DNA of 64,000 bases from Microcaldota archaeon (lineage in GTDB: Archaea; Micrarchaeota; Micrarchaeia; Micrarchaeales; Micrarchaeaceae), in assembly GCA_021799475.1 (NCBI GenBank), contig JAJZAJ010000001.1:310001-374000 (forward strand), written 5' to 3'. Positions 8,542 to 11,508 of the stretch are shown piece after piece (position 1 is the stretch's first letter; each line of letters begins with the position of its first letter). Under the pieces are notes generated by a model that saw nothing but the letters and a program-made list of their open reading frames with translations, made no database searches and had not been told where the DNA came from. The translations under genes were made by a program, and so were the position numbers.

Positions 8542-9654
8542 TTACTGTATCAAATTCCTCAAAAAAAGCCTTTTGAACATCAAGTATGGGCTGTCCATAT
8601 CCCCGTATCTGCCAAGGAACCTGTCGGCATGCGCAAGCTTTGCCCATCTGATCAGCACCGCCAGGCTTCTGTTCCCCAATGAGGAATAATACCTGTGCAC
8701 CATCCTGTGCAGCTCAAGGTCCAGATTGTACTGCCTCCTCCATTCGTGTTCATATTCAGCAATCGGTTTTCCTTCAAAGACATGTTTTGCTATGCACCTG
8801 GCAGCCACCATGGCGCATGCACTCCCGAATATGACCCCTCCTCCTGTCGTTGCTTTCACCTGCCCCGCAGCATCGCCGACAAGGAGCACGTTTCCGCTCA
8901 CAGTCCTCTTTCTCGTAGTCAGCGGTATTATGCTTGCATAACCCACAGTCCTGACAGCATTCCCTATGGCTCCGTCAATCTCTTTCATGCGTATGAAGTC
9001 ATTGAATGCCGCAGCGCTGTTCTTATTCGATAGACTGCTGATACCGATTCCTATCTCTATCTTGCTCTTTGAATACGGGACGGTCCAGCCGAAGAACCTT
9101 TTTGCTATTCTGTTGTTGAAGAAAAGCCTGACTCTGTCGCTTCTGTCTATATCTGCATGGTCGTATTCCGCTTTGTACGTCAGGATGTATTCCTTTACAG
9201 GAGGAAAACCAAACGCGTTCGCAACTGTCGATACTGCCCCATCCGCGCCTACCAGTATAATATCCTTGTCTGATGCGAGATCCATAAGCCTTTCCTTGTC
9301 AATCCTTCTTGCGAGCTCGAGCTTCGCTCCTTCAGATACCGCTTCCTTGGCAAGAGTTTCGGCAAACCTGCCTCTGTCAAGCACATATGCCTTCGTTACA
9401 TCCGCATCTATCGCAATGCTCTCGCCTCCTCCGTGCACAATGGCTCCGCTGAGCTCGTTCACCTTTGCTCCAGAGAAATCTATCCCTATGGTATCAAGGC
9501 CCTTCTTGGAAAATATGCCCGAAGCCTTTGCCGCTCCGTCCGATACTCTGTTCTTGCCATCGTATACAGTGGCATAAACCCCTCTACGCGCAAGGTCTCT
9601 TGCGAGTATCAATCCGGCAGGCCCTGCCCCGACAATCACGACCTCTTTAGTCAT
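8542..9654 (-). CDS. Geranylgeranyl reductase family flavoprotein
   Basis: MTKEVVIVGAGPAGLILARDLA (FAD Rossmann) ... GNVLLVGDAAGQVKATTGGGVIFG; ATG at 9654. Confidence 0.9.
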   Translation of the reverse strand: MTKEVVIVGAGPAGLILARDLARRGVYATVYDGKNRVSDGAAKASGIFSKKGLDTIGIDFSGAKVNELSGAIVHGGGESIAIDADVTKAYVLDRGRFAETLAKEAVSEGAKLELARRIDKERLMDLASDKDIILVGADGAVSTVANAFGFPPVKEYILTYKAEYDHADIDRSDRVRLFFNNRIAKRFFGWTVPYSKSKIEIGIGISSLSNKNSAAAFNDFIRMKEIDGAIGNAVRTVGYASIIPLTTRKRTVSGNVLLVGDAAGQVKATTGGGVIFGSACAMVAARCIAKHVFEGKPIAEYEHEWRRQYNLDLELHRMVHRYYSSLGNRSLAVLIRWAKLAHADRFLGRYGDMDSPYLMFKRLFLRNLIQ

Positions 9655-9702
9655 ACGATCAGACGTGCCAAGACTACTGACCGGCATCGGTATTTAAAGC
9701 TT

Positions 9703-10098
9703 TTGATTCAAAAAGTATCCATAGGTGTTTTCACGGCAGCAAAATCTGGCAAATCAGGGTCGGGCAAATCTGGAGGCTCTATACCTTCACCGAACATAAA
9801 AATACAGAACATAGTGGTCAGCGCAGACCTTCACGCAGTCATAGACTTATACGCTCTTTCAAACGAGGTGAAGGCCGTGGATTACGAACCTGAGCAGTTT
9901 CCAGGCGCAATATTCAAGATAACGGAGCCAAAGGCAAGAATAATATTGTTCAAGAACGGCAAGATGATTTGCACGGGGACCAACACAGAGGCAAACATAA
10001 AAAAAGTGCTGGAGTACGCATCGAAGATAATATCGAAGTACGTGATATCGATGAACCCCCCGCAAAGCAAAGCTATTACGGCAAAGTCCTCAAAGTAG
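9703..10098 (+). CDS. TATA-box-binding-protein-like protein with a single TBP repeat (start uncertain: TTG 9703 or a later non-ATG codon)
   Basis: IKIQNIVVSADLHAVIDLYALSNEVKAVDYEPEQFPGAIFKITEPKARIILFKNGKMICTGTNTEANIKKVLEYASKIISK matches one TBP half-repeat; no second repeat upstream (antisense to reductase) or downstream; TTTAAA at about 9693. Confidence 0.85.
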   Translation: MIQKVSIGVFTAAKSGKSGSGKSGGSIPSPNIKIQNIVVSADLHAVIDLYALSNEVKAVDYEPEQFPGAIFKITEPKARIILFKNGKMICTGTNTEANIKKVLEYASKIISKYVISMNPPQSKAITAKSSK

Positions 10099-10368: not shown

Positions 10369-11508
10369 CTATCTCATCTTTGCTATTTTAGCAACCCTCT
10401 CATCGAACCTGCTGAAGAACATATCCCACGAATAATTCTTTTTAACCCTGTCATATCCTGATTTGCCCATCTGCTTCGCGACAGATTTGTGCTCCGATAT
10501 GTAGAGCATTCTGTCAGCCATCTCCTCCTCGCTGTTGACAAGCAGCCCTGTTTTCCCGTCGAGTATCGTAAATCTCGGTTCGCCCTCGTTGACCGATATG
10601 ACGGGCTTGCGGCTCGCCATCCCCTCCAAAGGGACAAGACCATAATCCTCGTTGATCGGAGCATACATCACCGCTGTGCACTCCGCAAACAAATCCCTCA
10701 TCCGTTCATCGGTCGGATCGTCTATAATCAGCACGTCTCCTGCCTTTGCCGCCATCTTCCTTATGCCTTCCTTGTATGCACGGTGCGCCTTGTCCCTGCT
10801 TGTTGCACCTGCAAGCACAAGCCTGTAGCTTTTCTTTGTCCTTTTCTTGAAGATTTCAAATGCCCTTATCACGTAATCCTGTCTCTTGTTCGGCGAGAAT
10901 CTCGAAGGATAAAAGAAATATCTTCCATCTCCCTCATCATTGTAAAGCTCATAGTCAATCCCACCGCCAAGCACCTCAACATCCTTCCTGCCAAAGAACT
11001 CCATGATTCTCGATCTGGTATTTTCGCTATTCGCGTATATGAACTCTATATCATCCACTATCGCCTTATCTATCCTCCGTATAGCGGTTGCTCCTAGCGC
11101 ATGTATGGGCTTCTGCCATGCCCTCTTAAGCATCATTCTCTGTTCGTACAGGTCCCATACCTCCCTAAGAGGAGTATGGCAATACCAGAGCACGCGCTCA
11201 TTGTTCCTCCTTATCCAGTGTGATGGTGCGATGTGCGCATTCAGCACGTCATAGTCCTCCTGCAGTTTGAAGTTGAGGAACCCTATCCCGTAAGAGAGCC
11301 CCTGTGCGGCCCTCCCGTATGGCAGTGCCTTGAGCAGCATCCCTCTATTTATAGTCTCAACATCAAGCTCTCCGAACTCCGGAAACGTCATTTCCGGAGC
11401 ATATTCCCCGACATATATCTTTGCATCGTAGTGCTGAGCTATTTTCAGAAGTATGCGCTCCGCTCCTCCCTTTACTGTCAGGTTTGCGGTTGCCATAACG
11501 AGTTTCAT
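10369..11508 (-). CDS. Glycosyltransferase family 4-like
   Basis: GGAERILLKIA ... FFYPSRFSPNKRQDYVIRAFEIFKK ... MYAPINEDYGLVPLEGMASRKPVISVNEGEPRFTI. Confidence 0.88.
   Translation of the reverse strand: MKLVMATANLTVKGGAERILLKIAQHYDAKIYVGEYAPEMTFPEFGELDVETINRGMLLKALPYGRAAQGLSYGIGFLNFKLQEDYDVLNAHIAPSHWIRRNNERVLWYCHTPLREVWDLYEQRMMLKRAWQKPIHALGATAIRRIDKAIVDDIEFIYANSENTRSRIMEFFGRKDVEVLGGGIDYELYNDEGDGRYFFYPSRFSPNKRQDYVIRAFEIFKKRTKKSYRLVLAGATSRDKAHRAYKEGIRKMAAKAGDVLIIDDPTDERMRDLFAECTAVMYAPINEDYGLVPLEGMASRKPVISVNEGEPRFTILDGKTGLLVNSEEEMADRMLYISEHKSVAKQMGKSGYDRVKKNYSWDMFFSRFDERVAKIAKMR

Follow-up and report, generated by a model that had tools for sequence, protein, structure and literature searches.

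In archaea and eukaryotes the TATA-binding protein (TBP) is, to our knowledge, treated as universally two-lobed. The canonical protein spans the TATA box with its two lobes, and the pair of Glu residues in the YEPE motif of the C lobe provides contacts for TFIIB/TFB, as established in work on TBP and TFIIB. That TBP arose when a single lobe was duplicated has long been inferred, and we know of no living system that would allow this to be tested. Single-TBP-domain proteins were reportedly described in some Archaea by Brindefalk et al. in 2013. A further point of comparison is the infC gene of E. coli, which starts at AUU, a non-AUG codon that is used for regulation.

A survey of DPANN genomes merely lists TBP as conserved [PMC8407392], and a literature search on TBP in Micrarchaeota, on half-size TBPs and on ACG as a start codon in archaea found no case of a single-lobe TBP as the only TBP. 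The window analysed here is a stretch of 64,000 nucleotides from a Micrarchaeota draft genome (814 kb in 3 contigs, 95% complete), and it carries a gene, here called paralog A, that an earlier note had described as a TBP of half the usual size. The findings below make it quite probable that half-TBPs of this kind are general transcription factors that have lost one lobe, act as dimers at the TATA box, were rebuilt into a two-lobed form in some relatives and, in the case of paralog A, are translated from an ACG codon.

The half-TBP gene and its neighbours

The product of paralog A includes one complete TBP lobe, which scores 84.5 bits against PF00352 (curated cut-off 22.9). NCBIfam models for full-length TBP align to it over only half of the model length, and the whole-protein NCBIfam scores of the half-TBP are 62–86 bits versus cut-offs of 181–347. 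No second TBP lobe was found in the paralog A chain or in the neighbouring frames. A frameshifted or adjacent second half was considered and rejected on this basis, in agreement with the earlier note, which had recognised a single repeat and seen no frameshifted partner. A Pfam profile search found no other domain in the product, RNase H included. All of the DNA-contact residues examined are kept in the lobe of the window, namely the Asn and Val of strand 1, the Thr of the CTG motif, and the Phe pair, with one Phe in QFPG and one in LLF/ILF (here ILF), which the earlier note had correctly identified as the retained intercalating pair. Glu is kept at the TFB-contact positions. The coordinates of these and other features are given in Table 1.

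Table 1. Features of the paralog A locus, and location of paralog B. Positions are those of the window, except for paralog B, which is given by genome and contig.
Feature	Position	Strand	Details
FAD-dependent (geranylgeranyl-reductase-like) oxidoreductase, divergent neighbour	8542..9654	-	PF01494 45.6 bits, PF22578 weak; synteny
TATTTAAA TATA-like box	9691..9698	.	between divergent reductase and half-TBP; part of conserved TATA-NCTTT element; putative role
Shine-Dalgarno-like GGTGTT	9724..9729	+	3 bases before ACG; GGTGAT/GGTGTT/GGTGGT conserved in orthologs
CDS of half-size TBP, paralog A	9733..10098	+	121 codons and TAG stop; proposed start ACG 9733-9735
Single TBP lobe	9793..10041	+	PF00352 1-85/85; motifs YEPEQFPG, ILFKNGK, MICTG
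Glycosyltransferase, conserved downstream neighbour	10369..11508	-	PF00534 79.8 bits; synteny 66/80 loci
Paralog B, single lobe in 111-codon ORF	G000:C1:32769-33011		PF00352

The single repeat is conserved in relatives, as orthologs of paralog A with 65–88% identity were found in 80 contigs. The gene order is shared as well, with the reductase (GGR) present at 57/80, the glycosyltransferase (GT) at 66/80 and SRP54 at 41/80 of the loci. Contig ends truncate some of these. Orthologs at this level of identity together with shared neighbours place paralog A far beyond chance. Named relatives are in records labelled Micrarchaeota, Micrarchaeaceae, Micrarchaeum, Mancarchaeum or, apparently misnamed, Marsarchaeota. 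Judged by its sequence, the window gene is a true single-lobe TBP that is conserved in relatives.

Because the window comes from a 3-contig draft, an artefact was also considered, whereby an assembly deletion or a pseudogene, both raised in the earlier note, would explain the single lobe, and a sequencing error the non-ATG start. This reading is refuted by conservation, since tens of independent assemblies, that of the closed M. harzensis genome among them, share the same single lobe, synteny and ACG, and its probability is practically nil.

The putative promoter region of the divergent reductase gene

The likely start of the reductase gene is ATG 9654, its longest ORF beginning at 9687, and TATTTAAA is located roughly midway between this ATG and the ACG at 9733. 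The TATA-NCTTT element to which it belongs is present in 43/77 orthologous upstream regions, versus 1.3 expected from shuffles. Read on the opposite strand, the element consists of a BRE-like GAAAG and TATA, and faces the reductase gene. We infer that it is the BRE-TATA promoter of the reductase. An inverted promoter of the half-TBP gene was also considered for this element and rejected, as the element is better read as the promoter of the divergent gene.

A conserved ACG as the proposed start codon

The earlier note had suggested a non-ATG start, placed at TTG 9703. The first part of this holds and the position does not, as TTG 9703 is only 5 bases past the TATA-like box, and the start conserved in orthologs is ACG 9733. 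In A-type genes of the Micrarchaeaceae, a Shine-Dalgarno (SD)-like GGTGAT, GGTGTT or GGTGGT is followed, usually after a spacer of 3 bases, by ACG. Using a search pattern that was picked after inspecting the sequences, SD-spaced ACG was found in 45/86 distinct A-type genes. In sixteen of these 45, the stretch from the upstream stop to the lobe contains no ATG, GTG or TTG, and in-frame stops are often found directly upstream of the conserved ACG (A-type genes L050–L129). The other Thr codons, ACA, ACC and ACT, do not occur at the start position. The Thr codon of the CTG motif in the same genes, a control that has the same relatedness as the start-position set, is ACC in 15, ACA in 14, ACT in 9 and ACG in 5. 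In other lineages, ATG or TTG is found at this SD spacing, together with one ATA and one GCG.

Translation of paralog A in the Micrarchaeaceae thus most likely starts at the conserved ACG behind the Shine-Dalgarno sequence, and such a start might perhaps keep the level of paralog A low or regulated. Should the codon not be read directly, ACG may be converted to AUG by C-to-U editing. The pattern GGTGWTNNNACG, which is narrow, has three matches in the host genome, one being paralog A and another lying inside an ATPase gene region, and these two give no sign of a genome-wide ACG habit. For a general transcription factor, a conserved start at ACG would, if true, be rare among prokaryotes. A B-type gene in a further genome (L191, G030) includes no ATG, and may start at an in-frame GTG or at an ACG further downstream.

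TBP and TFB genes of the host genome

A PF00352 search of the 3 contigs of the host genome gave two matches, both single-lobe, corresponding to paralog A and a diverged paralog B, and no full-length TBP. A full-length TBP elsewhere in the host was rejected on this result, and the option put forward in the earlier note, of an accessory half-TBP beside a normal TBP, falls with it, as the only other match is paralog B. The host has one TFB gene, predicting a zinc ribbon and two cyclin repeats, and TFB domains were detected in 12 of 13 other genomes examined.

Distribution across Micrarchaeota

A survey of 223 Micrarchaeota genomes, each at least 80% complete, was confined to this phylum and found PF00352 in 214 of them. 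The single-lobe families (f1, f2 and f14–f26) include 144 genomes with a match. The two-lobed families (f3–f13) include 70, nearly all of which are two-lobed as judged with the full-length model (f8 was confirmed as two-lobed). No single-lobe Micrarchaeota family was found to have a two-lobed TBP of its own, and the two-repeat TFB is kept in single-lobe families wherever examined. In the sister family, which belongs to the same order as the host (n = 36), B is found alone in 19 genomes, two single-lobe genes in 14, an A-like gene alone in one and neither in one. In the remaining genome (G059), B is accompanied by a partial tandem copy located where a contig ends. Here, an in-frame, near-identical partial copy of the lobe precedes the full lobe (L020, G059:C39), and this is either a nascent tandem TBP or a contig-end assembly artefact.

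The one-contig genome G039 and genome G037 (97% complete) each have a single lobe in total. In G207, taken to be the closed chromosome of M. harzensis [CP060530], A lies at 156040, B at 786685, and no tandem or further TBP was found. Candidatus Micrarchaeum harzensis A_DKE, one of the named relatives, has a closed genome of 989,838 bases that was obtained from a co-culture [PMC8975820].

Unusual arrangements were also seen. In f15 and f16, two or three single-lobe TBP genes are possible, one of them strongly diverged (42 bits), as in L164–L166 (G136) and L325 (G142:C12:19300-19539). One genome of the host's own family carries a canonical-looking two-lobed TBP of 220 bits (L132, G022:C43) beside the two usual single lobes. 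It was rejected as a genuine exception to the family pattern, as its score is unlike that of every Micrarchaeota TBP and the contig is probably a contaminant.

In the host's own family, two single-lobe genes are present in 44/46 genomes, as would be expected if an ancestral TBP gene had been split, in the style of Nanoarchaeum, into an N half and a C half, now A and B, that form an obligate A/B pair. However, many sister-family genomes have B alone (19/36), both A and B carry the C-lobe-like YEPEQFPG, and A and B cluster together in the Micrarchaeota clade rather than one with canonical N lobes and the other with canonical C lobes. A split gene is therefore very unlikely. It is also very unlikely that the half-TBPs are accessory regulators, acting as competitors or sequestering TFB, with the work of TBP done by some other diverged protein or with TBP-free initiation. 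Single TBP domains are indeed said to occur in other contexts, such as the N-domain of RNase HIII and DNA glycosylases, but no further PF00352 match is present in the host or in the closed and one-contig relatives, the DNA-intercalating and TFB-contact residues of the half-TBPs are strictly conserved, and TATA-like boxes are found upstream of genes.

Evolutionary history of the lobes

The two lobes of two-lobed Micrarchaeota TBPs mostly share 0.56–0.77 identity, with lower values of 38–50% in f6 and f7. Inter-lobe identity in canonical TBPs (Sulfolobus, Methanocaldococcus, Pyrococcus, haloarchaeal and one other) is 0.42–0.55. In a tree of 97 lobes, based on only 84 columns, every Micrarchaeota lobe falls in one clade (100/97) that excludes all canonical N and C lobes, and single lobes are found on either side of the first Micrarchaeota split. 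An arrangement grouping the N lobes of two-lobed Micrarchaeota TBPs with canonical N lobes, and their C lobes with canonical C lobes, was rejected (p-AU 0.023, delta lnL 50), and a single origin of the two-lobed Micrarchaeota form was not rejected (p-AU 0.17).

Three archaeal EF-2 sequences taken from PDB alignments served to root an EF-2 tree of 60 genomes, in which all two-lobed families form one nested clade with a support of 98 and one reversal (G066). The single-lobe f21–f26, f20, f1/f2, f14–f19 and f16 fall outside this clade. This single gene did not reject an alternative with all single-lobe lineages as one clade (p-AU 0.079), under which two-lobed TBP could be ancestral, and the direction of change is thus favoured rather than proven. 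The single-lobe TBP of G066 (L178, G066:C11:137433-137675), found in a genome that is 84% complete, appears to be a reversal within the two-lobed clade.

The ancestry of the lobes in a single lobe, the earlier branching of single-lobe lineages and the position of f3–f13 as one later clade suggest loss of a lobe, followed by rebuilding of the two-lobed form by duplication. The history favoured by the trees is that the Micrarchaeota ancestor lost a lobe and that a two-lobed TBP was re-made once. The description of the half-TBP as ancestral-like in the earlier note is misleading, as, by the trees, the single lobe arose secondarily through simplification of a two-lobed TBP.

The likeness of tandem lobes could also have been produced by gene conversion, without re-duplication. 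On this view, the two-lobed TBP would be ancestral, its lobes homogenised by concerted evolution, and the single lobes would result from later deletion. The G066 lobe indicates that deletion does happen, and the p-AU of 0.079 leaves one single-lobe clade standing. However, the best rooted EF-2 tree places several single-lobe lineages below the nested two-lobed clade, and the lobe tree has singles on both sides of the first split. This history is unlikely, though with an appreciable chance of being correct, and loss of a lobe followed by rebuilding is preferred.

The two-lobed TBPs of f4 (L135, L140, L149–L151 and other f4 loci) have the minor-groove Thr replaced by Val in the N lobe and by Ala in the C lobe. 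Because the replacement differs between the lobes, asymmetry is re-emerging in this family.

Proposed dimer formation and promoter direction

An AlphaFold2 monomer model of the half-TBP, built with 34 orthologs and of moderate confidence (pLDDT 67.7), has the topology of a TBP lobe, and its best match is TBP, with a TM(query) of 0.65 and an rmsd of 1.4 over 85 columns to 1qna. The Asn, Val and Thr residues and the Phe pair are present in nearly all single lobes, and both Glu of YEPE in all single lobes except one. At the first of these Glu positions, the canonical N lobes sampled usually have Asn, His or Asp. As this position is Glu in every Micrarchaeota lobe sampled, each chain might in principle be able to contact TFB.

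Two single-lobe chains would be expected to pair via their first beta strands, like the lobes inside canonical TBP, forming a saddle that would bend the TATA box. A homodimer is the simplest arrangement, given that canonical TBP needs two lobes and that B-only genomes such as G039 combine one lobe gene with a two-repeat TFB. The homodimer proposed in the earlier note is accordingly the sole option for a saddle in relatives with one lobe gene, and would be a B homodimer where only B is present. It is less secure for the host, where the existence of the diverged single-lobe paralog B makes an A/B heterodimer equally possible. The host and its family may use this heterodimer or alternative homodimers (A2, B2).

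The half-TBP would have lost the built-in asymmetry of TBP. Since each lobe offers the Glu pair for TFB, promoter orientation would be set mainly by recognition of the BRE through TFB. In G039, the motif GnnAAnnTATATATA upstream of genes scores 93.7 versus 49–56 in shuffles, and includes a BRE-like GnnAA upstream of a TATA-like box. Going by this motif, TFB could be oriented on a symmetric TBP by a BRE-like element that flanks the TATA box on its usual side. Symmetry of the TATA motif does not discriminate between a symmetric and an asymmetric TBP, as in small samples the motifs are near-palindromic in both one-lobe and two-lobed genomes. The more specific account, with a basal reduction to a symmetric homodimer, A/B asymmetry regained through gene duplication in the window's order, the fused form rebuilt elsewhere and an ACG start, appears slightly more probable than its contrary.

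There seem to be living cells that rely on single lobes for transcription, with relatives that seem to have re-made the fused form. It thus becomes possible to test how the duplication took place, whether asymmetry is needed and what gives promoters their direction. For M. harzensis, which is kept in co-culture, RNA reads have been deposited (BioSamples SAMN15702898 and SAMN15702859 [PMC8975820]).

Comparison with known systems

The half-TBP shares with canonical archaeal TBP (PF00352, NF001593/NF001597; 1mp9, 2z8u, 1pcz/1ais) a homologous lobe, the fold, the Phe pair, Asn/Thr and Glu, with TFB alongside, but it has one lobe per chain instead of two, and FKNGK replaces F.SGK. The two-lobed TBPs of f3–f13, whose lobes are very alike and belong to the clade of single lobes, differ from it in being a fused tandem. 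The N-terminal domain of RNase HIII is also a TBP-like single unit, but the structural match is weak (E 0.12) and the half-TBP has no RNase H. A free-standing single TBP domain is reportedly likewise found in the proteins of Brindefalk et al., from which the Micrarchaeota half-TBPs would differ as the sole TBP-domain proteins of whole families. The proposed ACG resembles the AUU of E. coli infC in being a conserved near-cognate start behind a good ribosome-binding site, but here the codon is ACG, the gene is that of an archaeal transcription factor, and the regulatory role is putative.
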